DNA of 64,000 nucleotides from Parelaphostrongylus tenuis. Taxonomy: Eukaryota; Nematoda; Chromadorea; Rhabditida; Metastrongylidae. Every line of letters starts with the position of its first letter. Position 1 is the first letter of the stretch. Shown piece after piece: positions 5,451-57,222 of the stretch. The position numbers were made by a program, and so were the translations under genes. The notes under the pieces are model-generated. The model was not told the origin of the DNA. It did no database searches and saw only the letters and a program-made list of their open reading frames with translations. Where the stretch lies: assembly GCA_019055375.1 (NCBI GenBank), contig JAHQIW010003637.1, positions 1 through 64,000 on the forward strand. The letters run 5' to 3'.

Positions 5451-5959
5451 ATTGGCAAGAAAGTTCTGGAGCACTTGTAGGGAAATGTAAATTAATGCGT
5501 GAATTCCAGACGAAAAGCAATAATAACTATTCTTCAAAATGAAACATTTGTTTTCTACAACTTTCTGCCATTGGTACGCCAAGTTTCAGATCTGGTCGAA
5601 AGTACCATTCCTTCGACTTCGAATCAAAGAAATCTTGACCTGCTTTGCTCTTCAACTTTGTTGGTACCTCCTGAACGAGGTATGTCTTTGAGGTCAAGAT
5701 CTCCGGCATTGAGAAGCGTTGAATCCAGAGTCCAGCAGCAGATGTGGTTGTTGTGTGATCCCCATCAACTTGGTTGAATTTATCGACTGAGGCTCGCTGT
5801 GAATGAAGACCACTTCTCCAATAATGACACAATTAAACATGAACTTCGATTATATCGTTGGACGTGGCGTAGACTTGTAACAAAGTAAAAATAAAGGCAA
5901 ATACTATCGAGGTCTTTAGTGAGAGAATTCCACATAAGAAACTTTAATGTTTCCATGAT

Positions 5960-6254
5960 AGTCTGCAAGAATGTTTAAAACTTTACTGAGGTTGTTGCAT
6001 CATAGCCATACGAGTTTCGGAGATACTGCCCCCCATCAGTGGTTCACGCCCCACACTGAATCTTGCTTTATAGCAGGGATGAGAAGCCGTATGTGGTGAT
6101 AAGACATGCGATTATGTTATCACCCTTCCAGTTGACAGATTGCGGGTGTTAGGTATAAATTGATCCATCTCACCGACTATTCTTAATCTTGAAACATTTC
6201 ACGGACTATATAGAAAGTTTATAGCGTGTTTAAAAAGACAGTCAGTGAAATGAT
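5960..6254 (-). mobile_element. Degenerate hammerhead-bearing unit inserted in mariner
   Basis: Collinear with the tandem units at 30811-31340: a fold-over of GAGTTTCGG...CCCCATCAGTGG (minus-strand hammerhead remnant), then a GCCCCACACTGAA segment, then the hairpin GGTGATAA/TTATCACC (6095-6102 with 6117-6124). The catalytic core is damaged: CUGAUGA has become CUGAUGG and the short stem III is lost. It is flanked by TTCCATGAT (5951-5959) and TTTCATGAT (6255-6263), a plausible target-site duplication inside the mariner. It therefore appears to have moved as a discrete ~295-bp element. Confidence 0.6.
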
Positions 6255-6274
6255 TTTCATGATGTGCATGGGAG

Positions 6275-6579
6275 AATGAGCACATGTGGCGCAGTGGTTA
6301 AAGGTGCTCGGCGTCGCACACGAGGTCAGTGGTTCGATCTCGCGCTCGTGGCTCAACAAGCCACCCATCCTTCCGTGGTTGGTAAATTGGTACCAGACTG
6401 GTCGCACGCTTGTCTGGGAGGATAAGCAGCAATGACCGGTTCAGCAGAAGGCCATCGAGAGCATTGTGAAGATCAGACGTGCATTGAATCACCTTAAACG
6501 AAGTTAAAATCGAAAATGAGTACATGGCGCATTCCTCAGGGATTATTCAAAGTCAAGAGCTTTGTTGTTTTAATTTTTT
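6275..6579 (+). mobile_element. tRNA-derived SINE, family 1, copy 2 with target-site duplication
   Basis: Best-preserved copy. The A box reads TGGCGCAGTGGTTAAAGG and the B box GTGGTTCGATCTCGC, about 45 bases apart. It ends in a T-rich tail (TTTTAATTTTTTT). Flanks are TGCATGGGAG (6265-6274) and TGCATAGGAG (6580-6589), a 10-bp duplication with one mismatch, and both belong to the host mariner. This fixes the element at about 305 bp and shows it inserted after the mariner. Confidence 0.8.
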
Positions 6580-6677: not shown

Positions 6678-7295
6678 TTCGTTTCGAGTGTTTTTTTAAG
6701 ACCACTGCTCAAATTTCAATATGCCTGATAATCATTATTTGAGCCACGCATGTCAGTGGTCTATCAATGAGGGCTGACTTATGAGCCCGATACACGTGTT
6801 TCGATCTTGCGATCTCGTCAGTCGCGCAGTTACCCTTTCTCGTCTTTTGCTAATCTCTGTGGGAGCTCCAATCCCCACATCGAGAGTTAGCGTCGACTAA
6901 CGTTTTACACTCTATGTCCAGTGAAATTATCAGCGAACACAGACCACTGACATGCGTGGCTAAAAATGATTACCAGGCATATTGAAATTTGAGCTGTGGT
7001 CTTAAGAAAACACTCGAAACGAAAGACATGATATATTGAATATACCAGGCAAGAGCAATCGAGTGCACAACAATCTGTGTTCGGTGAAAATTTCAGTGTA
7101 CATAGAGTGTAAAACGTTCGTCGTCGCAAACTCTTAGTGTGGGGACTGGAGCTCCCACAGAGATTAGCAAAAGACGAGAATGGGTAACTGCGCGTCTGAC
7201 GAGATCGCAAGATCGAAACACGTGTATCGGGCTCTATAAGTCAGCCCTCATTGCTAGATCACTGACTTGCGTGGCTTAAATAATGATTATCACTT
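6678..7295. repeat. Nested fold-back element
   Basis: Segment X (6678-6757, from TTTCGAGTGTTTTTTTAAG to CATGTCAGTGGTC) returns as its reverse complement at 6945-7022. The ~187-bp segment between them (Y) returns as its reverse complement at about 7070-7255, followed by another partial X'. The order is X-Y-X'-spacer-Y'-partial X'. X behaves as a ~80-bp terminal inverted repeat, so X-Y-X' looks like a ~345-bp MITE, with a second truncated copy in opposite orientation beside it. X also recurs at 7525 and twice at 23.4-23.8 kb. Confidence 0.75.
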
Positions 7296-7524: not shown

Positions 7525-7672
7525 TGCTTTGTTTAGACCACGCTCAAATTTCAATATATTCTTTCATCATTATTTGAGCCAACATGTCAAGTGGTCTGGT
7601 AACGGCTCTTGTACAGCCGATAGAAGAGCCCTTACCAGACCACATGACATGTTGGCTCAAATAATGATGAAA
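7525..7672. repeat. X-family copy ending in a near-perfect 49-bp-arm palindrome
   Basis: Arms 7562-7610 and 7624-7672 are complementary at 47 of 49 positions around a 13-base loop (7611-7623). The arm contains the X-type sequence TTATTTGAGCC, AACATGTCA and GTGGTCTGGTAA. It looks like the two termini of an X-type element with the interior lost. Confidence 0.85.
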
Positions 7673-8670
7673 GGAAATCATTTTGGGACTTTTCAGTACC
7701 TAATAAACATGACTCATCGAACTGCCAATTTTGGAAAATGCTCCAAAATCACGAATTTGGCATTCTTTTCTTAGTAAGCGCAACTTAGTATCTTTAGTGG
7801 ACTGTTTTTGAAAAGCTGACATGAGATCGCTTCCTTGTCTTTTTTCGATTGCTAACGTTACGTCAACTTATCCTTGAAAACAAGGAATACGACACCTTGT
7901 TGTGCAGCTCATTGATGTGACCGCAGCTCTGTAATTCTGATGAGAAATTCAGTGTTCAGACTCCAATCTTCTCATATGCCCACATAATTTCCTAAGACGT
8001 GCCGTACCTCGCGACCAATCAATGGGTCCTTATGTCCACGCCTAGCGCCGAATAATTTGTTTTGCCGCGTATCCATTGAAAATCTGGCATTTACTTGGCA
8101 ATTTAAGGTTTTAAGAGGACGTTTCCAATACAAAATTATGGAATACTACTAGAGAGACTCATTTTGAATGGCATCAACTGCGTGAATTTTGTGAAAACTA
8201 TGCACATCTTCATAGTAATAACAACGGTACTTTATCAATGGTTTTCTTTCTGTATATCGACTTGTCGTCATAAACGAGAGTAAATCTAACAGATCTTCTA
8301 TAAGAGTTATAAGATTACTGTATGAGTAGTGGACCACAATTCACAAAATTACAAACGTAAAAATGGGAACTAGTGCCTTGTACAACTTTGGTATTCTTAT
8401 TTATCATTTTAAAGGGCATGCCATAGCTCTACAGTAGACTGTCAATTTACAATATTTTAAAGTTTTTTATTTTCATTTTCACTTTTTGATTTCCATAGTG
8501 GATGTGTGAAACATTATTACAAGAGCTTACTACATTTTCATTCTGACGTGATTCAGTCATTACTGCGACTATCGAAACCCATAAGATTTGCTAATTTCCT
8601 TCTGGTGTCTCGCTACAGTTGATGTTGGCTAGATAAAAACGTTTATCTTAAGCACATTACAGTTACATTC
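7673..8670. other. No gene recognised
   Basis: Short frames only. No conserved exon, TE motif or RNA element could be identified. Confidence 0.5.
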
Positions 8671-16974: not shown

Positions 16975-19440
16975 ATGGCTTCCAGTTGCTTGCAAGACAC
17001 ATGAGCGAATTCCTGCCTCTGTTCGTCTCTCGAAAGCTGCCATTGTGTTAGAAGAATCAGATGATGCACGCGTAATTCTCACCCATGCAGTGGAATGTTG
17101 TAGGTGAGTTCATTCCTGTTTTGAGCAGAGCGCATATTTTTGTCGGTTCGTTATTTCTTCCTTTATCTTGAAGAATTCCCTATGAGTATCAGTTGTTGAA
17201 TTATCATCGAGTGATTTGATAGTAGAAGCAGATTTCGTAAGAAAAAAGAAAGGAACTCTTTTAGCTCAAGTACCGAGCTCCGTTGACTATGGCGTGTTTG
17301 GAAACCTGTATCAATGCGCGAAAGTTCTTAATAGAGCTCGAGAACATATTCCGACCGATTGTCAGATTTGGTTGTTCTCTGCTCATCTAAAAGAAACGCG
17401 ATGTCAAAAGGATATGTTTGATCATATCGTACAGAGGGTATATTGTAGCGACTATGGTTTCAATGGTGTGGTGAATGAGTGAATGACGTGAAGTTCAATC
17501 ATGTGTGGTATAGTATGAGTCGTTCTGCACCTCAAAATTCTGTCTTCTGGCTTTTTGTATGCGGAATTTAGGCTTTATCACCCTCAAATGAAAATATGGT
17601 GGGGTTGAATCGAGAACGTTGAATGAAGGATGTCATAAACGCCAAACGTGTCGGCGGCACGCTTACTTGTCAAGCCATAATGTTAGTCATTTTGAGGTCT
17701 TGTGCTCACTAAGCTCTGTGATGCTTCATTAAATAGATGGGCATTTTGCTCATGTGTGGCTGCGTTTCTAAGAATATTATTTTTGTTAATACTTGATTTG
17801 ATATGAGATTGTTCAAACTGTGATGTCATCAGTACTGGTGTAGAAGACGGAGACAAAAAGCAACGTGATTGGAAGATGCAGACTCTATTGCAAAACTCTT
17901 TTGCAAAAAAGATATGACAGTACATTCTTCTATGGCTACGTAAATCAAATTTTAGACCCTTAGACGCCTCAATGGCAAATAAGACCACATCAGTATGGTA
18001 AAGATTAAGAATTCTCAAGATGCTCAGTTGAGTAAGTAGAACTTTGTGATTCCGGATTTTACCCCATTTTCATGGACGCTAGCATGTACCCCTGCGGTTT
18101 ACGCCCAGGCCTTGAAGAACATCGAAAAACGTCAGGGCGTTTGCCTTGCAGCTGCTCATTTCGAAAAGAACAGGAAATATCGTTTGTTTACTTTGTATTT
18201 TTGCTTCATATATTGGTTAAATTAGGGCATACTTGGCGCAGTCGTCAGGGCTGCTCTGCGTGGCACACTAGGTCGATGGTTGAATCTCGCGCTTATGGTA
18301 CACCAAGCCATCCATCCCTCCGAGGTCAGTAAATTGATATCGAACTGGTCGCAGACTTTTCTGTGAGGATGTGCAACACTGAGTGGATACAGCGGGAGGT
18401 CACCGCGAGTCATTGTAAATGCGAGATATGCATTCATTGACCTCCAAGCGAAGTTAAAAATTGAAGGCGAATGCATGGCGCATCTCTCAGTGATTGATCA
18501 ATGCCGAGAGCTTTATCCCTATTGGCTAGTTTCCGGAATATAAACGTTTCACGTTTAGCGAGCAATATGAGACACTTCTTGCCGATGCATCCACTTCTTG
18601 TCCACAAATTAAAGTTTTATGGCTAATGTAGGCAAGACTGAGATGCTTACATAGTGATATCTCAGGAGCTAGGTTAATTCTCGCTATGATGTGTTTCAGT
18701 ATATTTTACTTCATGAACTATCTAGGATGATTTCTTTCCTGGAAATTATACAGAACGAGTACGTGGGACCATTTTACATTTTCCCAACAACTGCTTCCAA
18801 AAAAAAACTGATCAAATCACGATTCTATCAATTGTTTTGCGGATTTGTCACTCGTCTATTACTTTTCGAGGCTTTTAAATATAAAGCCAAGTCTGAGGCA
18901 TTTGGATTGCTGCAGTTAAGTTGGAGTCAGCGAACAACAAATTTGCACGTGCTCCTCGTCTTCTTAAAAAAGCTCGACGCAACGCTCCTTTGGCATGGAT
19001 GTGGACGAAGTGTGCTCGGCTTGACTGGTGTCTGGGTGACCTGGAAAGGGCAAAAGTGTTGATCAAAGGAGGACTCGAGAAGTCAGTTTTAGTTAGTGTT
19101 TCTGAGAAATTCGAGGAGAAATTAATTGTGCATGCGATGATGATTCATGGTTGAATAAAGGATGTCTATAGAACTCAATTCTAGGTGTCCAGATTTCGCA
19201 AAACTTTACATGGTGTTGGGACAGATCACTTTTCAAAAAATAACTATGACGAAACTAGGCAAATATTTGCTGAAGTCGATGATTTAGGCAGACTTAAGGT
19301 CATTTATGAGTATATCAACATTTTTATTGTTTATCTAAGCTCAAAAACTACCTTGGCGCTGCTCCTTTATGGCCATTACTGAGTCGTCTGGAGGAGTTGC
19401 AAAAGCAAATTAGGCGAGATCTGATTTGAATAAGGTTGGT
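16975..19440 (+). pseudogene. PRP6-like (pre-mRNA-processing factor 6) decayed, intron-containing copy
   Basis: PRP6 is a U5/tri-snRNP protein built of TPR/HAT repeats that acts in spliceosome assembly. Six collinear plus-strand pieces match its middle region as I recall it: about 16990-17103 ([20 protein letters not shown], then [12 protein letters not shown], followed by GTGAGT); 17270-17480 (AREHIPTDCQIWL, QKDMFDHIVQR); 18088-18170 (AVYAQALKNIEKRQG, LAAAHFEKN); 18893-19080 (AAVKLESANN, RRNAPLAWMWTKCARLDWCL, GDLERAKVLI); 19187-19290 (CPDFAKLYMVLGQI, then another frame with NYDETRQIFAE); 19345-19435 (LGAAPLWPLLSRLEELQKQ). Frameshifts occur in the second, fourth and fifth pieces and there are no N- or C-terminal parts. 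Retained intron-like gaps show this came from DNA duplication, not retrotransposition. A SINE sits in one gap. Confidence 0.8.
18224..18515 (+). mobile_element. tRNA-derived SINE, family 1, copy 3
   Basis: Head CTTGGCGCAGTCGTCAGGGC and GGTCGATGGTTGAATCTCGC (A- and B-box like), body AAGCCATCCATCCCTCCG and GCATTCATTGACCTCC, tail AATGCATGGCGCATCTCTCA. Same order as the copy at 6275. Inserted within an intron-like gap of the PRP6 pseudogene. Confidence 0.75.
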
Positions 19441-23334: not shown

Positions 23335-23805
23335 ATCCCCAAGAAAGTGACTAACGAAGAAACACTATGCAGCTGACGAAGCTGGTAGGCCAGAAAACGT
23401 GTATTCCACTGTATTAGTGTCCATAATAGGCCGCATGAGTGGCTTAAAAAATGTTTATCAGGCATATTGAATTTGGGCAGGGTCCAAAGAAACATTCGAA
23501 ACGAATGGTGCGGTATTTCACAATCACTAACCAACCGAATGTATAACAATGCCCGTTTGCTGCTTTTCATCACTTAACGGCGCGTGTAAATAATGCGTCT
23601 GCGATATCTCTACGCAAAGGGGTTCTCTCTCAAGAGGGACTGGCTCAGACAAGGGGTATCGCGCAGTTGACGAGGCTGCAAGGACGAAACACGTGTATTG
23701 CACTGTATAAGTGCCCATAAGAGACCACATGCATGGCTTATAAATACTTATCACGCATACTGAAATTTGAGCGTGGTCTGAAGAAACACTCGAAACGAAT
23801 TGTAT
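23335..23805. repeat. Direct duplication of X-family repeat
   Basis: A ~165-bp unit (GCAGCTGACGAAGCTG or GCAGTTGACGAGGCTG, then CGTGTATT-CACTGTAT-AGTG, then ATCAGGCATATTGAATTTG or ATCACGCATACTGAAATTTG, then ACTCGAAACGAA or its variant) occurs at about 23370-23506 and 23660-23802. The distal part is the X segment that forms the termini of the fold-back element at 6.7-7.3 kb. Confidence 0.6.
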
Positions 23806-29964: not shown

Positions 29965-30235
29965 CCAATACGCTGCAACATTTTCTAATCAGAAAGATGT
30001 GCTTCAACTAACGGTAAAAAATTTCTCATAAAAAAACTTATCAGGAGAAATCTTCAAATGTGAAACAAACCTCATTTCGACTGGTACGGCGTTAAAAACA
30101 AGCAATATGAGAAATACAGTATACTTAAAATTCGCTTGATGTACGCTATCAGATAACCATAAATTCGTCGGACAACAACAAAGGATACGCTTATCGAAGG
30201 CCTCAGTTAGCGTGTCCATAATAGAATAGTGCTAG
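29965..30235. repeat. Repeat R, copy 1
   Basis: Begins AGTACCAATACGCTGCAACA and runs through AACAAGCAATATGAGAAATA to TTTACATATCAACACGTAGG. A collinear copy is at 42236-42545 and the end of one is visible reversed at 63930-64000. Nature unknown. Confidence 0.7.
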
Positions 30236-30805
30236 ATTTTACATATCAACACGTAGGCTAATGGAATTTTTGGATCGGAGTTACGTCTCCCAGTTAGGTG
30301 CTCTTTTACACGGATCCTAAGTAGTCCACTCGTCTTGCAAATGTATCATACCCGCACGCCTCGTAAGAGATTAGTTAAATTTTTCCAGATCTCGGCATAC
30401 GCAGTCTCTGCTGTTTGGGCAAACTGCAGTTTTTCGTTTAGCAAACGCGGTCGTAGAGACACTTCATGATAATTAGGCGCTTAGTGTATTTGGTGGTATG
30501 CGGACTACTGCTATCGAATTATCCAAACCTGCTCTTTTTTAGCAGCGCTGAATAGCTGCACTTGCAACGTTAGAAATAAAGATCAAGATGAATGCAACCT
30601 CATCCTGGCCACGTCTTTCGTTTGTGGGCGCGCGAATTTTCACTAATTATAACCTGAGGAGCTCGTACCATGTTGTAGCCATTAGAGATGGCTATTTTTC
30701 GAGCCAAGCTTCGCAACTCTGCCTTATGTTCTTTTCGTGTGCATACAGTGACAGCTGTTCAGACATGTTCTTCAGAAGTGGACATTTGTGTACAACAGAT
30801 GAGAA
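30236..30805 (-). mobile_element. Penelope-like retroelement 3' fragment, copy 1
   Basis: Reverse complement is collinear with the PLE at 31337-31900: the AGCTGTCACTGTATGCACAC start, AATAGCCATCTCTAATG, TCTTGATCTTTATTTCTAAC, CAGCAGAGACTGCGTATGCC, ATCTCTTACGAGG, then AAAAGAGCACCTAACTGGGA encoding the VKEHLTG part of the GIY-YIG motif. Several frameshifts. Its 5' end faces the hammerhead repeat at 30811, in the same (minus) sense as the ribozymes. Confidence 0.7.
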
Positions 30806-30810
30806 CATAA

Positions 30811-31079
30811 TTCAAAGATCGGCTGTTTTGAAACCCCAAAAAAACATTCAATATAATTCCAAAAAAAAGAATGAATTAAGCTCAAAAAGGGGTTGGTACG
30901 CCAGGGTCATACACCGGTGTTTCGGAGGTTCGTCCTCCTCATCAGTGACCCCCGCCCCACATTCAGCCCTGCATTGAAGCAAGGAGGGAGGCGTAATGTG
31001 GTGATGGCACAGTGTACTATGGACACTGTACCATCATCACTTCTCAGTCGATAGATTTTTGCTGTTATATCAAAACTAA
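30811..31079 (-). repeat. Hammerhead-bearing tandem unit, first copy
   Basis: Unit of ~269 bp, immediately followed by a second (31080 to about 31340). On the plus strand it contains TTCAAAGATCGGCTGTTTTG, an AACATTCAATATAATTCC segment, a poly-A run, GGTTGGTACGCCAGGGTCAT, the ribozyme, GCCCCACATTCAGCCCTGC and a hairpin at 31000-31038. The unit lies exactly between two divergently oriented PLE ends. Confidence 0.85.
30904..30951 (-). ncRNA. Hammerhead ribozyme 1 (minimal, short stem III)
   Basis: Minus strand: stem I GGGUCA / UGACCC (6 bp), core CUGAUGA, stem II GGAGG-ACGAA-CCUCC, core GAAA, then stem III ACACC/GGUGU with no loop, then A as the cleavage-site residue (GUA). Every conserved hammerhead core position I can check is present. 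Minimal hammerheads with such a short stem III are known from Penelope-like retroelements, where they lie in the terminal repeats; that context fits here. Predicted action: self-cleavage of the minus-strand transcript at the A/U junction (30910/30909). Confidence 0.85.
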
Positions 31080-31340
31080 TTCAAAAGATCGACTGTTTTT
31101 GGAACCCCAAAAAAAACATTCAATATAATTCCAAAAAAAAAAAAGAATGATTTAAGCTCAAAAAGGGTTGGTACGCCAGGGTCATACACCGGTGTTTCGG
31201 AGGTTCGTCCTCCTCATCAGTGACCCCCCCCCACATTCAGCCCTGCATTGAAGCAAGGAGGGAGGCGTATGTGGTGATGGCACAGTGAACAGAGACACTG
31301 GTCCATCACCACCTCTCAGTCGATAGGTTTTTAGCTGTCA
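31080..31340 (-). repeat. Hammerhead-bearing tandem unit, second copy
   Basis: Nearly identical to 30811-31079, with a longer A run and a few substitutions. The ribozyme-to-ribozyme distance is 275 nt. It ends near ATAGGTTTTTAGCTGT, where plus-strand PLE sequence begins. Confidence 0.85.
31179..31226 (-). ncRNA. Hammerhead ribozyme 2
   Basis: Same 48-nt motif as the first: GGGUCA/UGACCC, CUGAUGA, GGAGG/CCUCC, GAAA, ACACCGGUGU, A. All core positions are intact. Two tandem ribozymes in one minus-strand transcript would release a unit-length ~275-nt RNA. Confidence 0.85.
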
Positions 31341-32330
31341 GAGTGTGCATTGAAAAGGGCCATAAGGTAGTGTCTTCGAGCTTGGCGCGAAAAATAGCCA
31401 TCTCTAATGTCTACAACATGGTAGGAGCTGCTCAGATTAGATTAAGAAAAATTTCGCGCCCCCAATTGATCTTGATCTTTATTTCTAACGTAGTAAGTGC
31501 AGCTACTAAATGCTGCTCAGAAAGAGCAGTTTGGATAATTTAGTAGCTGTATTCGAGATCTCACCAAATACACTAAGGCGCCAGTTAGACCGCAACCGAC
31601 TGTACGACCGTCCTCTGCGAAACGAAAAACTGCCAAGTTTGCTCAAGCAGCAGAGACGGCGACTGCCGAGATCTGGTACAGTTCAACTAATCTCTTGCAA
31701 GGATTGTGGGTATGAATACATTGGCAGAACGGATAGACCACTTAGCATTCGCGTAAAAGAGCGACTAACTGAGAAACATAACTCCGATCCAAAAACCCCA
31801 CTTGGTACGCATTAGGAACAAAAGAATAAAGAAGCAGATTTTGACGTTAAATTCACGGTCTTTGTACAAGGATTGAAAAAAAAAATCCGCGTGTAAAACT
31901 TTGGAAGCTTTTTGGATACATAGTAAAGACCCAAAAATGGACCGCAATGAAGAGTGCCTTGTATTAACGCGTGACCTCGCAACATACCTTAGGCTAATCC
32001 TCTCCGCCTGAGCCAGGCACAGCAGTCTCTCTTATGCACTAACTTGAGCGGCTAGTCTTGTGAGTAATTGAAAGACCTAAAACTGTCAGCGGCTGAGTGT
32101 TTTAAAATGAAGATTTACTATGCGCCCCAAAATTCGTTTCTTACGTTCTCTGTTGAGGTTATGAGGCTTTGGACCGATTGATTTGCGAATCGAACTTGAT
32201 CTTTCCACGCTTTGAAGATCTCGTCGAACGTAAGCCACCACAATTAGAGTACAATATATGCTGCATTACAACACTGTATTGTTGTATTGCATCAGTCATT
32301 TTCAATAAATACTATTTTTAACACCTCGGA
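31337..32330 (+). mobile_element. Penelope-like retroelement 3' fragment with GIY-YIG motif, copy 2
   Basis: The 5' part corresponds to the RT-endonuclease linker (LRRQLDRNRLYDRPLRNE). 31680-31790 encodes CGYEYIGRTDRPLSIRVKE, the GIY-YIG nuclease core preceded by a Cys-x-x-Cys-type pair (SCKDC), a PLE hallmark. Downstream LEAFW-type and ITRDL-type pieces survive only in shifted frames. A 3' untranslated part (31980-32330) is shared with the copies at 48870, 51260 and 55610. No RT catalytic motif in this fragment. Confidence 0.8.
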
Positions 32331-32865
32331 AGTGCCCAACAGAAATACCTACTGATCTACTAAAATACGGTGGAGAGAGCAGGAGTTAAAGTTACACATT
32401 GAGTAAGGCCACGAAATAAAAGAATGGCCTGCATCTATGGGACAAAAAAAAACAATAGTGCGACATAAACGGATGATGATTGAAGATGGGTAGTTGCTGC
32501 ATTTGTCTAGGAGGAGTATTTGCTCGTGTGAGACGTCGTTATCGTTCTCCTTTGGTAAAGGCAGCTGGTACGGTGCCTGTCGCAGATTGCTTGGTTGCAT
32601 ATATGGCGATATGATATGCAGCAAATCGTACAATGTGTGATAGTGTGAAAAGATTATAGCTAATATGCATTGTATCTGTCGTGCTGACTAACATACTCTT
32701 AATCGCTCGCTCTGATTCTGTTTCAGAAGTAGCATCTTTGGTGAACGTACTGAGAATCGATAGGATTGCTAGGCTACATCTTCATCAAAAATACAAACAA
32801 ACAAAAAAAATCTACACTCAGTTCGTACATTAGCTCAATCGCCCTCTGAAGCATAATGTATCCAC
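32331..32865. repeat. PLE-RTE spacer repeat (three copies)
   Basis: Collinear with 51621-52150 and 55966-56503. Shared landmarks: CTGCATCTATGGGACAAAAA, TGATGATTGAAGATGGG, GTTATCGTTCTCCTTTG, and TAGGCTACATCTTCATCAAA. Always lies between a plus-strand PLE end and the 3' end of a minus-strand RTE. No convincing coding frame. Confidence 0.75.
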
Positions 32866-34640
32866 CTGTATCACCTGCCGTCCCGTTACCTTATTTTCGA
32901 TGACCTGGCGTGTAAAACGGCGTCTGTGATTTTTGATCGTTGACGTAGGTCGGAACTTCGATTTCTTTCTCTCATTTGCAGGATACGTAGCATCGACCTT
33001 TTCACTGCGCGTTCAATATCGCCAAGTGATCTTTCATCCTGCTTGCGTAGCGACCAGATTCCTGCTGCATGCGTCTGGACAGGGATAATTGTCAAGCCGA
33101 AAAGGTAGACACGGAGTCGGATAATCCTTGTCCTTTTCGCTACATCTTCGAATGCTCTTGAAGGTTCCCTAAGCCGCTCATTTCCTCCTGCCTGCCTCTA
33201 GAACTGGGTCGTTCACAGATTTTTGTTCCGTTGAATGTGAATGGGGCAGTCAAAACTCATCCGTTCCTTGTCAACATGTTTCGTTAGACTTAGTTGAAGA
33301 CCAGTCTTTCCGCAGGTGTTGTGCAATTCGGTCAACATTCGTTCCGCTTGCCTTATGCTTGGTGTCATGAGGACTGTATCGTCAACGAAGCGAAGATTGT
33401 TTTTATTGTCGATCCGTCAATTTTCACTCTCATTTGATCCCATTCTGATGTTCGCATGACATTTTGGAGGGTGGCAGTGATTATTTTGGGAAAATTGTAT
33501 GTCCTTGTCGAACCCCTCTTCTTACGCCGATGGTAATATTGTTGTACAATGGCGATATTTTGGTCGTAAAATATCTAGATAGCTCAAGAAGGATCCTTAT
33601 TTACCGAGTAGGGCGCACTTGATTGTCCAGGGCCTCTACAATCGCTCTTGTTTCCACTGATCGAAGGCTTTCCTCAAATCATGAAAGTGATACAGAATGG
33701 TATTTTGTGCTCTCGCGAAACTCCAAGTGAGCCTTGTGAGCGTATGGATGTGGTCTATGATACTAAATTCTTTCCGAAACCTTGCTTGTTGGCATGGCTG
33801 TCCTTTGGTCCAGTGTTCTCTTGATCCTGTTTAGGATGACTCGAGTGAAGAGTTTAAAGACAACGGACAGTCAAGCAGATTGGATGATAATTGCTTATGT
33901 CGTGAAGGTCCTTCTTTTGAACAACAACACAGTCTTGCTGCTTTTCCATGATTGCGAACCTTGCATTCTGACAGGTAGCGATTGAAGAGCCGAGCCAGGG
34001 TGAGGATGAGAACTGGCAGCTAGGTTTTAAGGTGTTTTAGTCTAAACCTGTCTGTACCAGATACTGTTCTGAATTTCACCGACGTTATATCATGTCGGAT
34101 TTTGGAGAAGAGGACAGGTGGAATAACAGATTCATCCTTTTTCAATTTATATGAGGATAAGAGTACATGTCTGGCGAAGAGATCGGCGTAGTACTGGTGG
34201 ATGATTTTTCCACTACCTTTCTCGAAGCTGTAAGTGTCCCGTCAGGACATCGTAGTACAATCAACTTGGTCTTATAATTGGCGAAACCTGGGCTTTGCGA
34301 ATGATCTCCCGCGCTTCTGCAACTTCTGCCATAACTGCTGCTCGTCTCTCTTCAAGATCATCTTTATCCTTCTCTGCATCGTTTCGCAAGATCGAGCGTA
34401 AAGTTTTGGTTGCTGTAATTCGTGAGATTTCACGTTGACTTATCAACTCGAGTGTCTGCGAAGACAAGCGTCTCTTCGTGACTTTAGGGCTCTCGCCTTT
34501 CACAGCGCTAGCGTGAAGATATTCAACGAGCCGGTAGTATTCTTCGTCTATCTTGTTGAAAACGGTATCCTCCTAAGAGCCGACTAATGATTCCAATACA
34601 TCTCAGTTTATGATAGTTCTAAGCCTTCGTTGTTTGAATT
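32866..34640 (-). mobile_element. RTE-type retrotransposon, C-terminal two-thirds, inactive (block C)
   Basis: Read from 34503 downwards: linker (KGESPKVTKRRLSSQTLEL, DLEERRAAVMAEVAEA), then RT motifs with many stops (SVVFKLFTRVILNRI, RRGVRQGHTIFPK, NNLRFVDDTVLMTPSIRQAE, where FVDD replaces the FADD active-site motif), then the C-terminal tail (WSLRKQDERSLGDIERAVKR, DLRQRSKI near 33060-32890). The 3' end has tandem ACAGGTGATAC. This copy shows what was deleted from the 10.2-kb copy. It borders the downstream flank of gene C. Confidence 0.85.
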
Positions 34641-34659
34641 AGCGGCTTTCTCTCCTTTA

Positions 34660-35250
34660 CGCGAAAAAGAAAACGTTGCGGGAAGGAGGCGGTGGTCTGA
34701 TCCCTCGTAGAACAACGACATTCTTATTCATCATTTCGGAAATTTTTCATAAGATAAGAAGCACCACTTCATGCAAATCGCCTATTTACATAATTAAATG
34801 CTTTCATCTTCGTTTCTACTCACCAACTTCCATTGTGGATATGAGTAACATCTATAAAAGCGAGCACATTCATTTTCATCAATTTCAGAACCACCAGAAT
34901 GATAGTGCCCGAACATGGGATTTAATCACTTTTCGATAGGCGAATGAGTGAATTTTTAGCTGTAACTTCAGAGCAACGCTGCTGTAAAATCAATTTCAGC
35001 ACGCTTATAATATTGTTTGTTTTAGAGCAGAAATTCAGCATTCTAAAAGGCATGTGAGAACTTCTCAGTTACTGTTCAAATAAAGTAGTAAGCACAAATT
35101 CATTACATTGCTCATTACAAATATGATTTACTGTTCCACCCTGATTGTTCAACACCCATATGGTTGCAAGTTTATTGATAGTGTACTTCCACAATGAATA
35201 TCGATTACATATAATGTTTATCTCAATAATATCACAGTTCACTTTCAATT
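34660..35250. repeat. Downstream flank of gene C
   Basis: Same as 11.05-11.63 kb; begins GGGAAGGAGGCGGTGGTCTG right after the RTE. The probable 3' UTR of gene C lies here; a polyadenylation signal was not fixed. Confidence 0.65.
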
Positions 35251-48869: not shown

Positions 48870-49700
48870 GTATTAGTGCAGTAATGCAGCATAAATAGGA
48901 CAGTAATCTTGTTGGCTTACGTTCGGCGACATTTGCCATCTTCAGGGCCTGGGAAGATCAAATTGATTCGCAAATCATTCAGTCAAAAGCCTCCATAACC
49001 TCAACAAAGAACGTAAGAAACGAATTTTGGGGCGCATAGTAAAACATCATTTCAAAACACTCAGCCGCTGACGTGTTTTCAGGTCTTTCAGCTGATCATT
49101 GGAAACTAGCCGCTTAGAGTTGGTGCATAAGAGAGACTGTGCCTGGTTCAGGCAGAGAGGATTATTTTGTTTCTATTAGGTGCCTAGTGGGGTTTTCGGA
49201 TCTGAGTTACGTTTCCTAGTTAGGTGCTCTTTTACGCGGATGCTAAGTGGTCTACCCGTTCTGCCAATGTATTCATACCCACCATACTCGCAAGAGATTA
49301 GTTAAACTGTACCAGATCTCGGAAGTCGCCGTCTCTGCTGTATGGGCAAACTTGACAGCTTTTCGTTGCGCAGAGACTGTCGTACAATCGGTTGCGGTCT
49401 AACTGGCGCTTTAGTGTATTTGATGGGATCTGACTACTGCTACTGAATTATCCAAACTACCCTTTTTGAGCAGTGCTTAGAGCTGCACTTAGTCCGTTAA
49501 TAAAAAATGATATGGTGGATGAAACTCAATCCTCGTTAGACCTTCCGTATGGGGCGCCAAAATCCCTCTAATTCTAATCTGAGGAGCTCCTACCATGTTT
49601 TACCCTATAGAGAAGGCTATTTTTCGCGCCAAACGTAGAGCCTCTACCTTATGTTTAATTTCAGTGCACACACTGACAACTATAATATGCTTTTCACAAA
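48870..49700 (-). mobile_element. Penelope-like retroelement 3' fragment, copy 3
   Basis: Reverse complement matches the 31.3-32.3 kb PLE: GIY-YIG region at about 49330-49190 (GGTATGAATACATTGGCAGA, then AAAAGAGCACCTAACTAGGA), then the shared 3' untranslated region down to 48870. The 5' end (about 49690) meets a plus-strand PLE head to head. Confidence 0.7.
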
Positions 49701-51620
49701 TAAACATTTTGTGTGCGACGGATGAGGAGATAGGCAATAAACCAGCATGATTCTGTTCATTGGCGTACGGTAACCGTTCGGTAGAAGTGAACCCTGTGCA
49801 AGAAGAAATAATGTTACCCGAGGAATATGAACGGTCACTTCAAACATATCGACAGCGCTTCGTCATTATTCTCTCAAGTGGTAAGTCGAAGTTTCCCACT
49901 ACTTGATCGGCGCTAAATAAGACTAGAAATTTGTGCTGTCCGTAAGAATGTTGAAGTTCTGCACTTCCTATAACAAACATCCTTCTAAGTACATTTTAAA
50001 TCAGTGTTTTTTCTTGTATACGCATTGATCGCAAAGTTAGTTGATGAAAGCGTGAAGATGAACGTGATTGCTATTTATACAAATACGTCGGATGAGTCGC
50101 AATGCATGCTAAATGCGAGCTTCTGACGGAGCACGAAAGAACCACGAACAAGCATGGCTTTACCATTTGGCAGGTGATGGCTTTCTTGAAACAGTGCCTT
50201 AACTGTTCATTCTTTAGATGGTCTAGGAATGTTTTGCACAGTTTGGAGGGCCGACATTGGGACAGCGACTAGCCCCGACCCCTGCTATCGCTTTTATGTC
50301 TAAAGTAGAGGCCCCAAAAGTAGCCTCCGGCCCTTACCCTGTTGTAGGTATACAGATGACTGCTCTGTCGTCTGCTCAACACAGGAGGAGATGGACAAAT
50401 GTTTTGAGATCTTAAACAGCCACTCAGTGCATGTAAAGTTCACAAGTGGGAAACGTAAGGCAAATTGGTTTCGTTTTCAATGTTCAAGCCAACCCATACA
50501 AGAACTTTCATGACATAATGGTGAAACAAGTTAAACAACAAAGGCATCGGGTTCATCACCTATGTTTTTATCCGCTGTACACAGATCCCCACTTTGAAGA
50601 ACATGTCTTGAACAGCTGTCAGTGTATGCACACGATAAGAACATAAGGCACAGTTTCCAATTTGGCGCAAAAAATAGTCATCTCTATTGGTTTCAACATG
50701 GAAGGAGCTCCTCGGGTTATAATTGAAGGAAACTCGTCGCCCCCAAACAGAAGGCCTGGGGAGAGTAAAGTTCCATTCATCTTGATCTTTATTTCTAACG
50801 TTGTACGTGCAGCTATCCAGCGCTGCTTGAAGAGAGCAGGTTTGGGTAATTTGATGCACTAGACCAGATATCACCAAACACATTTTGCGCCTATTTATTG
50901 GCAAGTATCTGTATGACCGCCTGTACGAAATGAAAAACCGCCATGTTTGCCCAAACTGCAGATACTGAGTTTGCCGAGATCCGGAACAATTTAACTAATC
51001 TCTTACGAGGCGTGCGTGTATGAATACATTGGCAAAACGAGTAGACCACTTAGCATCCGTGTAAAAGAGCACCTAACTGGGAAATGTAACTCCTATCCAA
51101 AAACCCCACTAGGCACGTATTAGAAACAAAAGAATTAAGGAGCAGATTTTGACGTTAAATTCACGGTCCTTGTACAGGGATCAATAAAATCCGCGCGTGA
51201 AACTTTGGAAGCCTTTTGGATACATAGGAAGGACCAAAAATGAACAGCAAAGAGGAGTGCCTCGTAATAACGCGTGACCTCACAACATATCTTAGGCTAA
51301 TCCTCCCCGCCTGAGCCAGGCACAGTCTCTCTTTTGCACTAACTCCAAGCGGCTAGTATTCAGTGATTCATTGAAATACCTAAAACACGTCAGCGGTGAG
51401 TGTTTATGAAATGAAGTTTTACTATGCGCCCAAAATTCGTTTCTTACGTTCTCTGTAGGGGTTATGGAAGCTTTTGACTGAATGATTTGCCAGTCAATTT
51501 GACCAGACTTTGAAAATGGCGAATCTCGCCGAACGTAAGCCACCAAGATTAGTGTCCTATTTATGCTGCATTACTACACTGTCTTGTTGTATTGCATCAG
51601 TCATTTCCAGTATATACTAC
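49690..51620 (+). mobile_element. Penelope-like retroelement, RT plus GIY-YIG, copy 4 (most complete)
   Basis: Pieces in order: EEIMLPEEYERSLQTYRQRF (49810-49890, PLE-associated, unassigned); VIAIYTNTSDES (about 50070, RT motif A region L-Y-T-N); LGQRLAPTPAIAFMSKVEAP (50255-50315); RYTDDCSVVCSTQEEMDKCF, then EILNSHS (50346-50430), which holds the RT catalytic YxDD; NKGI plus a linker (50540-50600); then the GIY-YIG endonuclease (about 51000-51120) and 3' part to 51620. PLEs are retroelements whose RT is related to telomerase. Frameshifts and stops (for example in the motif A region and at 50950) make this copy inactive. Confidence 0.8.
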
Positions 51621-52150
51621 TTTTAACACCTCGGAAGTGCGAACAGAGAATTCTACTGATCTACCAAAATAAAGTGGAGAAAGCAGGAGGGAAAGTTTCG
51701 CATAGTAAGGCAACAAAATATAAAAGAATGCTCTGCATCTATGGGACAAAAAAAGAAGCAATGATGCGAAGTAAACGGGTGATGATTGGAGATGGGCAGT
51801 TGCTGTATATTTCTAGTAGTGTTTGTCTGTAGACGTTATCGTTCTCCTTGATGATGACGACAGGTAGGATACCTGCCGGAGATAGCTTGGTTTGTATATT
51901 TGGCGATAAGATATGTAGCGACATTTAATAATGTGTAATAGTGTGATATGATTATAGTTGATATATCTTTGTTTCTGTCGTACTGACATATCGTATTGTT
52001 AATCGCTCGTTCCGATTCTGCTTTAAAAGTAGCGTCTTCGCTGAACATACTGAGAATCGCAAGGATTGCTAGGCTACATCTTCATCAAAAAATACAAACA
52101 AACAAAAAAACCTACATTCACTTCGACCACTATCTGAGTCGTCCTCTGAA
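51621..52150. repeat. PLE-RTE spacer repeat, second copy
   Basis: Collinear with 32331-32865, with a short deletion around the GGAGTGTT-type segment at 51820. Confidence 0.75.
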
Positions 52151-53860
52151 GCAGAATGTATCACCTGTATCACCTGTCGTCCCGTTACCTTCTTTTCGAT
52201 ATCCTGGCGTGTAAAACGGCGTCTATGATTTTCGATCGTTGAAGAAGGCCGGAACTTCAGATTCTTTCTCATTTGCGGCATACCTAGCATCGACCTTTCC
52301 CCTGCGCGTTTAATATCGCCAAGTAATCTTTCATCCTGCTTACGTTGCGATCAAGTTCCAGGTGCATACGTCAGGAAAGGGATAATCGTCGAGTCGAAAA
52401 GATTGACACGGTGTCGGATATTCGTTGTCCTCTTCGTAACATGTTCGATGCTCTTGCAGGTTCCCTAAGGCGCTCGTTTCCCTTCTGCTCAACTCTAGGG
52501 CTGGGTCGTTAGATAAACCTAGCAAGAGCACTTGAAGATTTTTCTTCAGTGGGGCGTGAATGGGGCATTCAAAATCTATCCGTTCCTCAGGAACATTTTT
52601 CGTTATGTTTTGTTTGAAGACCACTCTTTCCACAGGCGTTGTCCAAATCGGTCAACATTCGTTCCGCTTGCCTGATGCTTGGTGTTATGAGGACGGCACC
52701 ATCAGCGAAGCAAAGATTGTTTGATTATCGACCGTCAATTTTCGCTTCCATATCGTCCCATTATGATGTTCGTATGACATTCTGGAGGGTGGCAGTGAAT
52801 AATTTTGGAGAAACTGTATGTCCTTGTCTAGCCCTCTTCTTACGCCGATAATAATATTGTTGTAAAATGGAGATATTTTGGCCGTGAAACATCTATATAG
52901 CTCAAGGGTCCTCAACCGCTTCAGTTTCCACTGAATCTAAGGCTTTTTCTAAATTGATGAAAGTGAGACAGAGAGGTGGTTTGTGATCTCCCAAAACTTC
53001 ACTTAGTTTTGTGATCGTCTGGATACTAAATTCTTTCCGGAACCTTGCTTGTTCGCATGGCTGTCCTAAGTCCAGTGTTCTCTCGATCTTGTATCGGATG
53101 ACTCGAGTGAAGAGTTCATAGACAGCGGACAGCAAGCAGATTGGATGATGAATGCCTATTTCGTGAAGGTGTGAAAAGCCGAGCTAGGGTGTTGACGAGA
53201 ACTGGCGACGGGTCTTTCAGGTGTTATAGTTTTAACCTGTCTGGACCATGTGCGCTTTATTTTTCACCGACGATACAGCATGTCGGATTTTGGAGAAGAG
53301 GACCGATGGAATAATAGATTAATCCTTTTTAATTTTTATTAGGGCAAGAGTACATGGCTAGCAAAGAGATCGGAGTAGTACTGGTGGACGATTTTTTCCA
53401 CTGCCTTTCGGAAGCTGTAAGTGTCCCGTCAAGACATCGCAGTGCAGTCAACTTGGTCTTATAATTGGTGAAACCTAGGCTTTGCGAGTGCTCTTCAGCC
53501 TCTGCAGCTTCTGCCATAACTGCTGCTCGTCTCTCTTTAAGATCATCTTTTATCGCTTCTCTGCGTCGTTTCGCAAGATCGGACTCAAGGTTTTAGTTTC
53601 CTGTAATTCGTGCTATTTCACGTTTGCGTATCCGCTCGAGTGTCTGCGAAGACAAGCGTCTCTTCGTAACATTAGGGCTCTCGCCTTTCACAGCGCTAGC
53701 GTGAAGATATTCAACGAGATTCTTCGTCGATCTTGTTGATAACGGTATCGTCCCAAGAGTCGACTAATGATTTCAATACATCCCGGTTTATGATAGTTCC
53801 AAACCTACGTTGTTTGAATTTAGCGACTTTCTCTCTTTTACTCAAAAAAGGAACGTTGCG
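52150..53860 (-). mobile_element. RTE-type retrotransposon, inactive (block D)
   Basis: Minus strand: AAVMAEAAEAEEHSQSLGFT (53520s, linker), LSAVYELFTRVIRYKIERTL, GQPCEQARFRKEFS, CLTFINLEKALDSVETEAVE (53135-52910, RT motif A region), AKISPFYNNIIIGVRRG (about 52860) and ERIDFECPIHAPLKKN (52570). Stops and shifts throughout. Tandem ACAGGTGATAC marks the 3' end near 52150. Confidence 0.8.
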
Positions 53861-53869
53861 GGAAACGGT

Positions 53870-54347
53870 GGTCTGATTACGTGTAGAACAGCAACATCCT
53901 TATTTATCATTTTGGAAATTTTGATGAGAGAAGAGGCAGCACTTGAGCAAATTGCCAATTTACATGACTAGATGCTTACATCGTTGCTTCTACTCACCAA
54001 CTTCTATTGTGGATATGAGTAACATCTATAAAAACGCACACATTCATTGGCATCAATTCCAGACTACCCAAAATTTGTATGCCTGAGCATGGGATATGGT
54101 CACATTTTTATAGGCGAATGAGTGAATTTTTAGCTGGTACTTCAGAGCGACGCTGCTGTGAAATCAACGCCAGCATCGTAATATTATTATCTATTTTGCA
54201 GCGGAAATTCAGCACGCTAAAATGTATGTGGGAACTTCTTAGTTACTTTCCAAGTAAGGTAGTCACAAATTCATCACATTGTCCATTCCAATATAATTTC
54301 CTGCTCCACTCTGGTTGTTCAACACCCATATGGTTGCTGGTTCATCA
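53870..54347. repeat. Block D: gene-less copy of the gene-family downstream flank
   Basis: Collinear with 11.05-11.55 kb (GGCGAATGAGTGAATTTTTA, TTCAACACCCATATGGTTGC), then ends abruptly; no family exon follows. PLE sequence on the minus strand begins at once. Confidence 0.75.
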
Positions 54348-54975
54348 GCGATAGCAAAAGTTAGAGCTAGTCGTTGCCCTATTGTCGGCTCTCTGAATTG
54401 TGCAAAACACTCCCAGACCATCTAAAAATGAGCAGTTTAAGCTTTCTTTTAAGACAGCCATTATCTGCCAAATGGTGAAGCCATGCTTGTTCGTGGTTAC
54501 TTCGTGCTGCGTTAGAAGCTCGCATATACCCTGCATTGCGGACTCATTCGACGCGTTTGTATAAAGAGCGGTCACGGTCATCTTCACGCTCCCATCAAGT
54601 AACTCCGTGATCAGCACGTATATTCGAAAGATTTTACAAGAAAAAACTGATCTTAAATGTACTTTGAAAGATAATTGTTATAGAAAGTGCAGAACTTCAA
54701 TATTCTTACAGACTGCACAATTTATATTCTTATTTAGCGCCAATCAAGTCGTGGAATACTTCGACTCACCACTTGAGAGAAAAATGACGAAGCGGTGTCG
54801 GTATGTTTGGATTGATCTTCCATATTCCCCATCTAACATTATTTTTTCTTGCACCGGGTTCATTTCTATCTGCAATGTTGCCGTAAGCCAAGCAGCAGAA
54901 ACATCCTGGTTTATTCCTATCATCTCATCCGTTGCACACAAAATGCGTACTTGTGAAAAGCATGTTTTGAACAAC
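54348..54975 (-). mobile_element. Penelope-like retroelement RT fragment, copy 5
   Basis: Inverted relative to 49690-50290: EKIMLDGEYGRSIQTYRHRF (54850s), VKMTVTALYTNASNESAM (about 54580), LLTQHEVTTNKHGFTIWQI, SLNCSFLDGLG, then IGQRLALTFAIA reaching 54348, where it is cut. The catalytic YxDD would lie beyond the breakpoint and is absent. Confidence 0.65.
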
Positions 54976-55965
54976 TGCCAGTGTGCACATTGGAAAGGAC
55001 TATAAGGTAGAGTTCTCTAAACTTGCGAGGAAAATGGCCATCCCTAATGCCTACAACATGGCAGGAGCTCCTCAGATTAGAATCAGAGGAAATTTGGAGC
55101 CCCCAATTCATCTTGATCTTTATTTCTAACGCTGGTACGTGCAGCTACTAAGCGCTGTTTAGAAAGAGCAGTTTGGATAATTTAGTAGCTAGTAATCGAG
55201 ATACCATCAAATACACTTGAAGCGTTAATAGACCGCAACGACTGTACGACCGCCTCTGCGAAACTTCAAACTGCCAAGTTTGCCCAAACAGCAGAGACGG
55301 CGGCTGCCAAGCTCTGGTACAGTTTAACTATTCTCTTGCGAGAATTGTGATATGAATACATTGGCAGAACGGGTAGACCACATAGCATCCGCGTAAAAGA
55401 GCACCTAACTAGGAAAGGTAACTCAGATCCAAAAACCTCACTAGGCACGTATTAGAAACAAAAGAATTAAGGAGCAGATTTTGACGTTAATTCACGGTCC
55501 TTGTACAGGGATCAATAAATCCGCGCGTGAAACTTTGGAAGCCTTTTGGATACATAGAAGACCAAAAATGAACAGCAAAGAGGAGTGCCTCGTAATAACG
55601 CGTCACCTCGCAACATACCTTAGGCTAATCCTCCCCGCCTGAGCCAGACACTGCCTCTCTTATGCACTAACTTTAGGCGATAGTCTTCAGTGATTAATTG
55701 AAAGGACTAAAACATCTAACGGTGAGTGTTTTGAAAGGAAGTCTTACTATGCGCCCCAAAATTCGTTTCCTACGTTTTCTGTTGAGGTTATGGAGGCTTT
55801 TGACCGATTGATTTGCGAATCAATTTGATCTTTCCAGGCTCTGTAGATGTCGAATCTCGTCGAACGCAAGCCACCACGATTAGTGTACTATTTATGCTAA
55901 ATTTTATTGCTGCATTACTACACTGCATTGTTGTATTGCATCAGTCATTTTCAACAAATATATTT
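54950..55965 (+). mobile_element. Penelope-like retroelement 3' fragment, copy 6
   Basis: Starts at the same place as the other 3' fragments (GAACAACTGCCAGTGTGCAC) and runs through the GIY-YIG region (55340-55440, ATTGGCAGAACGGGTAGACC, CGCGTAAAAGAGCACCTAAC) to the 3' untranslated part. Several indels. Head to head with the RT fragment at 54348-54975. Confidence 0.7.
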
Positions 55966-56502
55966 TTGACACCTTGGAAGTGCCCAAAGAGAAATCTACT
56001 GATCTACTAAACACGGTGAAGAGAGCAGGAGTCAACTTACACAGTAAGTAGGGCCATCAAATATAAAGGAAACCTGCATCTATGGGACAAAAAAAACAAT
56101 AGTGCGACATGAACGGGTGATGATTGAAGATGGGCGTTGCCGCATTTGTCTAGGAGGAGTGCTTGGTCGTGTGAGACGTTGTTATCGTTCTCCTTTGGTA
56201 ATACCCATAGGTACGGTGCCTGTCGGAGATTGCTTGGTTTGTATAGATGGCGATATGATATGCTGCAAATATGTAATAATCTGTAATAGTGTGGAAAGAT
56301 TATAGCTAATATATCTTTGTTTCTGTCGTACTGACATATCATATTCTTAATCGTTCGTTCTGATTCTGTTTTAGAAGTAGCGTGTTTGGTGAACGTACTG
56401 AGAATCGCAAGGATTGCTCGGCTACATCTTCATCAAAAATACAAACAAAAAAAAAAATCTACACTCAATTTGTCCACTAGCTCAATCGTCCTCTGAAGCA
56501 TA
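55966..56502. repeat. PLE-RTE spacer repeat, third copy
   Basis: Collinear with 32331-32865 and 51621-52150. Confidence 0.75.
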
Positions 56503-57222
56503 ATGTATCACCTGTATCACCTGTCGTCCCGTTACTTATTTTCGATATCCTGGCGTATAAAACGGCGTCTATGATTTCCGATCGTTGACGTAGGTCGGAA
56601 CTTCTGATTCTTTCTCTCATTTGCAAGATACGTTGCATCGACCTTTCCACTGCGCGTTAAATACTGCCAAGTGATCTTTCACCTTTTTACTTACCGACCA
56701 GGTTCCTGCTGCATACGTCAGGGCAGGGATGGTCGTCAAGCCGAAAAGGTAGACACGGAGTCGTATATTTCTTGTCCTCTTCGCTACCTTCGATGCTCCT
56801 GAAGATTCCCTAAGGCGCTCGTTTCCCTCCTGCCCAACTCTAGAGTTAGGTCGTTCATCATGTTGATTTCACGACCTAGATAAACGTAATTGGAGCACTC
56901 GGAGGTTTTCGTTTCGTTGAATATGAATGGGGCAGTCAAAACTCATCCGTTCCTCATCAACATTTTTCGTTAGATTTAGTTGAAGACCAATCTTTCCACA
57001 GTTTGCTCAATTCAGTCAACATTCGTTTCCGCTTGCCTGATGCTTGGTGTTGTGAAGACTATCATAGCGAGCAAAGATTGTTTTTATTGTCGAACGGCAA
57101 ATTTCACTCCCATATCGTCCCATTCTAATACTAGCATGACATTTTGGAGGGTGGCAGTGAATAATTTTGAGAAAATTGTATGTCCTTGTCGAGTCCACTC
57201 TTCTTACGCCGATGGTAATATA
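56503..57222 (-). mobile_element. RTE-type retrotransposon 3' fragment, 5' truncated
   Basis: Shares the 3' end (ACAGGTGATAC repeats, about 56505) and C-terminal half with the 32.9- and 52.2-kb copies. It is cut at about 57222, just inside the RR-GV(R)-type motif. No gene-family flank follows, unlike blocks A, C and D. Confidence 0.75.

Follow-up and report, generated by a model that had tools for sequence, protein, structure and literature searches.

Among the described systems closest to the element reported here are the metazoan non-long-terminal-repeat (non-LTR) retrozymes and the minimal hammerhead ribozymes of Penelope-like elements (PLEs), which we take the Rfam family RAGATH-1-hammerhead (RF03152) to represent. 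Metazoan non-LTR retrozymes are described, in the sections of Cervera and de la Pena (2020; PMC7229834) drawn on here, as non-coding repeats of 150-450 bp that are arranged in tandem, contain a type I hammerhead and less than 50% GC, and show target-site duplications longer than 4 bp where these are present; PLEs are named there as a strong candidate for moving them. Other marks of this class are dispersed copies, the absence of an LTR, primer binding site and polypurine tract, and expression as linear and circular RNA of unit length. Hammerheads that work in pairs have precedents as well: weak single motifs of axolotl cut better as dimers (PMC7229834), and palindromic hammerhead dimers have been proposed for Aedes (Perreault, 2011; PMC3088659). 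Here we describe a stretch of 64,000 nucleotides from the nematode Parelaphostrongylus tenuis (contig JAHQIW010003637.1, positions 1 to 64,000 of the forward strand; "the window", whose numbering is used throughout). At 31 kb, a non-coding repeat of 275 bp, which we call family A, stands twice in tandem. This dimer is probably a non-autonomous retroelement of the retrozyme type, and its two hammerhead motifs are predicted to cleave RNA jointly.

The dimer carries two identical 48-nt motifs on the minus strand, spaced 275 nt apart, and each is a type I hammerhead by its core (CUGANGA/GAAA/NUH) and its three stems. The motif reads GGGTCA CTGATGA GGAGG-ACGAA-CCTCC GAA ACACC GGTGT A TGACCC, which gives the core elements CUGAUGA, GAA-A and GUA, a stem I of 6 bp (GGGUCA/UGACCC), a stem II of 5 bp (GGAGG/CCUCC) and, as stem III, a loopless 10-nt palindrome (ACACC/GGUGU). 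The GUA triplet ends at 31185 in motif 1 and at 30910 in motif 2. An initial annotation of this DNA had claimed the two motifs, their stems, their spacing and these triplet positions, all of which hold. A strict descriptor scan found 2 sites in the window and none in 100 dinucleotide shuffles, and a relaxed scan found 3 window sites (the strict two plus a motif of a second family, B1, described below) against a total of 3 across 100 shuffles. A 36-nt pattern, searched with at most 3 mismatches, matched twice, against 0 matches expected. Viral contigs contained no exact match to the pattern of either hammerhead family.

The two repeat units that carry these motifs differ by 14 substitutions over 249 gap-free columns (94% identity without gaps, 91% counting gaps), and the substitutions leave a block of 136 columns untouched, which includes the hammerhead; an equally long block arose in 3 of 20000 permutations. 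Constraint before insertion could account for this block, as could gene conversion; it is hardly what neutral decay would leave in two copies that started out equal. In the 523-nt insert that holds both units, stop-free frames do not exceed 61 codons, in line with the earlier claim that the tandem unit lacks coding sequence for a reverse transcriptase (RT) or a GIY-YIG endonuclease. In two sequence features the dimer resembles a retrozyme: its tandem non-coding units lie within 150-450 bp and have a type I hammerhead each, and the GC content of the unit is below 50% (0.425; window overall 0.402). The pair of units is missing from the output of Tandem Repeats Finder, perhaps because there are only two copies.

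A single motif can hardly form stem III, and the active form is therefore predicted to be a pair. On its own, the stem III palindrome ACACCGGUGU can form no more than about 3 bp around a CCGG loop, and the predicted hammerhead fold of a single motif (-14.0 kcal/mol) is beaten by an alternative fold (-16.4 kcal/mol). When two separate motifs are co-folded, the outcome is precisely the double hammerhead (-48.3 kcal/mol), in which both share a stem III of 10 bp. In tandem transcripts of 323 or 546 nt, the pair probability of the shared stem III is 0.92-1.0, against 0.0 for the single-motif stem III, and when either unit is folded alone the stem III probability is 0.01. These models thus predict that the motif misfolds alone and that, in a tandem transcript, two hammerheads form around one common stem III of 10 bp. 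The initial annotation had missed this predicted dependence on a partner, as well as the additional hammerhead copies in the window. When the predicted 275-nt unit RNA is folded as a circle, its z-score is -3.6 and none of 200 shuffles is as good.

A family A unit also occurs by itself. An nhmmer profile built from both 31-kb units brought up one more unit, in a decayed state, at 6160-5936 (E 1.4e-14), where a 288-nt insert (5961-6248) interrupts an unrelated repeat and is absent from all 4 aligned related copies of that repeat, at 9, 15, 29.5 and 39 kb. The alignment of the insert suggests a single permuted family A unit. A duplication of about 14 nt flanks the insert and is matched by 3 of 2000 shuffles. 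The family A unit appears to move by itself, since this lone copy is inserted and flanked by a duplication. Next to the insert lies a repeat resembling a short interspersed nuclear element (SINE) at 6285-6563, with a tRNA-like head and a short target-site duplication of its own (both by eye) and with further copies at 37-299 and 18234-18514; ARAGORN found no tRNA. This SINE-like repeat appears to have entered later, beside the insert.

A second hammerhead family, which we call B, lies at 6.7-7.3 kb and 23.3-23.8 kb. It has the core CUGACGA, a different but likewise palindromic stem III (ACAC/GUGU) and flanks unlike those of family A, and a MAFFT alignment of both families let the cores fall out of register. 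Within 23346-23804, the copies B3 and B4 form a direct tandem of decayed units with a spacing of 294 bp. At full model length, Rfam Hammerhead_1 scored 19.2 bits on B1 and 18.9 bits on B4, both below the cut-off of 34. No PLE piece was detected near the family B copies or near the lone family A copy at 6 kb. The copies B1 and B2 stand one on each arm of a 567-bp palindrome (6726-7292; 82% self-complementary) and point outwards, and a 113-bp palindrome at 7561-7673 (90%) is built from the family B tail and lacks the hammerhead. The coordinates of both families and of the sequences around them are collected in Table 1.

Table 1. Hammerhead-bearing repeats and adjoining features in the window.
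Feature	Coordinates	Strand	Remarks
Family A repeat unit 1	31084..31342	-	nhmmer profile-match range
Family A repeat unit 2	30812..31084	-	nhmmer profile-match range
Hammerhead motif 1	31179..31226	-	type I; stem III palindromic and without a loop; predicted cleavage 31185/31184
Hammerhead motif 2	30904..30951	-	identical to motif 1; predicted cleavage 30910/30909
Predicted unit-length RNA between both cleavage sites	30910..31184	-	275 nt, GC 0.425
Left arm, 5'-truncated PLE-like endonuclease fragment	30158..30809	-	hammerhead sense; 3' end approximate
Right arm, 5'-truncated PLE-like GIY-YIG fragment	31333..32320	+	opposite sense; 3' end approximate, by eye
Insert with decayed single family A unit	5961..6248	-	inside unrelated repeat; core CTGATGG, not CTGATGA
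Target-site duplication of decayed unit, left copy	5946..5960	+	flanks the insert
Target-site duplication of decayed unit, right copy	6249..6264	+	flanks the insert
B1	6785..6827	-	intact core, loopless stem III ACAC/GTGT, one G-G mismatch in stem I
B2	7190..7232	+	T-T as first stem I pair
B3	23367..23410	+	decayed family B hammerhead
B4	23661..23703	+	decayed; core TTGACGA

Several observations weigh against reading the dimer as a pair-acting retrozyme. First, the initial annotation had named the lack of a model hit above threshold as a refutation, and no Rfam hammerhead model scored above its threshold. At the gathering cut-off there were no Rfam matches in the whole window, and in 30000-32000 there was no hammerhead-type match up to E 10; hammerheads were picked up by Rfam only in scans of 81-91 bases. 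On 91 bases the best narrow match was RAGATH-1-hammerhead at 15.6 bits (cut-off 56.3), with Hammerhead_3 at 14.4 bits (cut-off 48.5), scores that were obtained without a known short-stem-III hammerhead as control. We still take the motifs to be hammerheads, because their core and stems match exactly and no shuffle reproduced them. Second, the folding results are not specific in every respect. The strand complementary to the 275-nt circle folds at least as well relative to its shuffles (z -4.7), so that the circular fold fails to single out the ribozyme strand. Any hairpin in two identical copies can pair, and the pairing gain over single motifs was reached by 15 of 500 mononucleotide shuffles and is hence not unique. 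For B1, the double hammerhead (-28.1) is inferior to the best co-fold (-32.5), which also speaks against a general pairing rule. Third, the insertion sites differ. A target-site duplication of more than 4 bp is seen at the lone copy and absent at the dimer, where 1187 of 2000 shuffles do equally well. At the lone copy, the profile match (5936-6160) covers about 200 of the 288 nt of the insert and overruns its end by 25 nt, the 88 nt on the 5' (upstream) side of the insert are not significantly unit-like alone (77 of 300 shuffles reach their score), and the 15-nt duplication has 18 places in the window within 3 edits, itself counted.

Compared with the metazoan non-LTR retrozymes (PMC7229834, in the sections cited), family A agrees in size, low GC content, tandem arrangement and type I hammerhead, and it likewise coexists with PLE-like sequence; the target-site duplication of the lone copy would fit the length described there, while the dimer has none. 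Family A differs in that it comprises only one two-unit tandem and one lone unit, in its fully palindromic stem III of 10 nt and in its nematode host. Like the minimal PLE hammerheads (RF03152), the motif forms hardly any stem III alone and is predicted to act as a pair; unlike them, it stands neither at the start of a PLE frame nor behind PLE-like 3' ends. As in the repeat-type hammerheads of Aedes, a palindromic stem/loop III could pair to a 10-bp dimer stem; that organism is another one, and the dimer form is called hypothetical in the portion of PMC3088659 used. The string "nematod" has no occurrence in the main text of PMC7229834 or in PMC7761336, as far as these texts were covered, and in the open full text that was covered "retrozyme" and "nematode" coincide only where nematodes stand for hepatitis delta virus-like ribozymes. 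No nematode retrozyme was found in the open-access literature searched, a scope that leaves out supplements and closed journals, and early hammerhead surveys may list nematodes.

The dimer lies between two inverted arms that are 75% identical to each other. The initial annotation had described them as head-to-head Penelope-like ends. Their inverted arrangement is confirmed, with 5 of 6 arm pairs complementary at 78-85% and one 18-nt pair at 94%, and their Penelope-like identity is weakly indicated by a GIY-YIG-like stretch in their translations. Reading stops as Y, which may favour a match, brought up PF01541 in two of the three copies, at E 0.0011 for the best and with the one score shown, 16.6 bits, below the cut-off of 22.6; when stops were read as X, one endonuclease piece of three matched, at E 0.09. 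Searches of Pfam, NCBIfam and PDB with the PLE-like pieces gave nothing at cut-off, and a protein search with an endonuclease piece and an RT-like piece gave no homologue. A copy at 49.7-52.3 kb has, upstream of its endonuclease-like part, a YTDD stretch and others that we take, by eye, to be RT motifs. All PLE pieces in the window are truncated, and there is no full-length PLE for comparison. The arms are the setting of this copy, not part of the family A unit.

Two further arrangements involve the PLE-like pieces. At 49161-50292 and 55467-54347 (79%), an inverted endonuclease-like piece is fused to a PLE-like RT piece; head-to-head pieces thus recur in this PLE-like family, since two loci share the inverted endonuclease-RT join. 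At three places (31333-35175, 50614-54345 and 54975-57221; 78-83% identical), a PLE-like 3' piece stands tail to tail with an element resembling a long interspersed nuclear element (LINE; RTE-type by eye), a recurrence which suggests that the composite was probably copied as a block. The LINE-like open reading frame (ORF) piece beside the right arm, compared only with proteins of similar length, has a Parelaphostrongylus tenuis protein as its best match (71% identity), and among the 120 matches listed of 198 significant ones there are 118 from Angiostrongylus cantonensis and 1 from Parelaphostrongylus tenuis. A metastrongyloid nematode is accordingly the likely host.

What brought the dimer between these arms could be a chimeric insertion, in which a PLE RT switched from PLE RNA to hammerhead RNA and back. 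This is compatible with a retrozyme-type element, and we regard it as a tentative and rather unlikely account. The insert sits exactly between the inverted arms; neither of its sides retains a PLE remnant, and a target-site duplication is missing. In a related palindrome at 49-52 kb the corresponding place is taken by an RT-like stretch, and in vitro a PLE protein both cuts the two DNA strands and extends them (PMC11167929, in the section cited). However, an insertion into the palindrome centre and a deletion at it would look alike, and the difference in identity between arms and units (75% against 94% without gaps) means that the events may differ in age. In addition, the uneven divergence of the units is not what would be expected had one circle been copied twice around and the product then decayed neutrally. 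We are similarly doubtful about the stronger claim that an RT jump left the dimer as its scar in the apex of a PLE palindrome, which would be direct genomic evidence for the mobilisation of retrozymes by PLEs in nematodes, with two families side by side. That PLE-like arms enclose the dimer on both sides hints at PLEs as movers of retrozymes but does not prove it.

Alternatively, the units could be pseudo-LTRs of the flanking PLE, and the locus a rearranged PLE copy. The units do abut PLE-like fragments, the left arm shares the sense of the hammerheads, PLEs have been reported with tandem minimal hammerheads that possibly act as dimers (PMC7761336 and PMC11167929, in the sections cited), and it is RAGATH-1-hammerhead that gives the best narrow Rfam score. 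Pseudo-LTRs would place a hammerhead repeat at the start of an RT-GIY-YIG frame and behind its 3' end, and this arrangement is absent here. The left unit joins its PLE fragment inside the RT-to-endonuclease stretch and not at the ORF start (motifs by eye), and none of 5 PLE-like 3' ends in the window, as placed from homology limits, has a hammerhead unit within 1 kb downstream (a sixth, at 63.7 kb, meets the window end and is uncounted). The lone family A copy and family B, as described above, stand where no PLE piece was detected. We consider this origin improbable, within a window whose PLE pieces are all truncated, and a tie of the hammerheads to PLE terminal repeats is not supported. The retrozyme-like reading of the initial annotation is the better of the two, because the tandem units are 275 nt long and non-coding and because there is a lone copy with a target-site duplication.

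Least probable of all, in our judgement, is that the locus is the relic of a satellite-like repeat whose hammerhead is vestigial and from which RNA is neither made nor used any longer: the hammerheads of the lone copy, B3 and B4 are damaged and the neighbouring PLE-like pieces are full of stops, yet both 31-kb motifs are intact, identical and within the substitution-free block, although recent gene conversion could yield the same block.

For a retrozyme-type dimer, the fold predictions and the published animal retrozymes together outline a possible cycle. In a two-unit transcript, the two palindromes would pair into the shared stem III, such that each hammerhead core is completed by the other copy. 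Cleavage would then free 275-nt RNAs, a host ligase would close them into circles, and an RT supplied in trans would copy the circles into new sites, the latter steps by analogy with the animal elements.

If this reading is true, it would extend retrozymes to nematodes, with two different families within 64 kb. The PLE setting of the dimer bears on the question of which enzyme moves retrozymes. The locus would also be a clear test case for the pairing rule: its ribozyme is predicted to be weak singly and active when doubled, which would limit processing to tandem transcripts.
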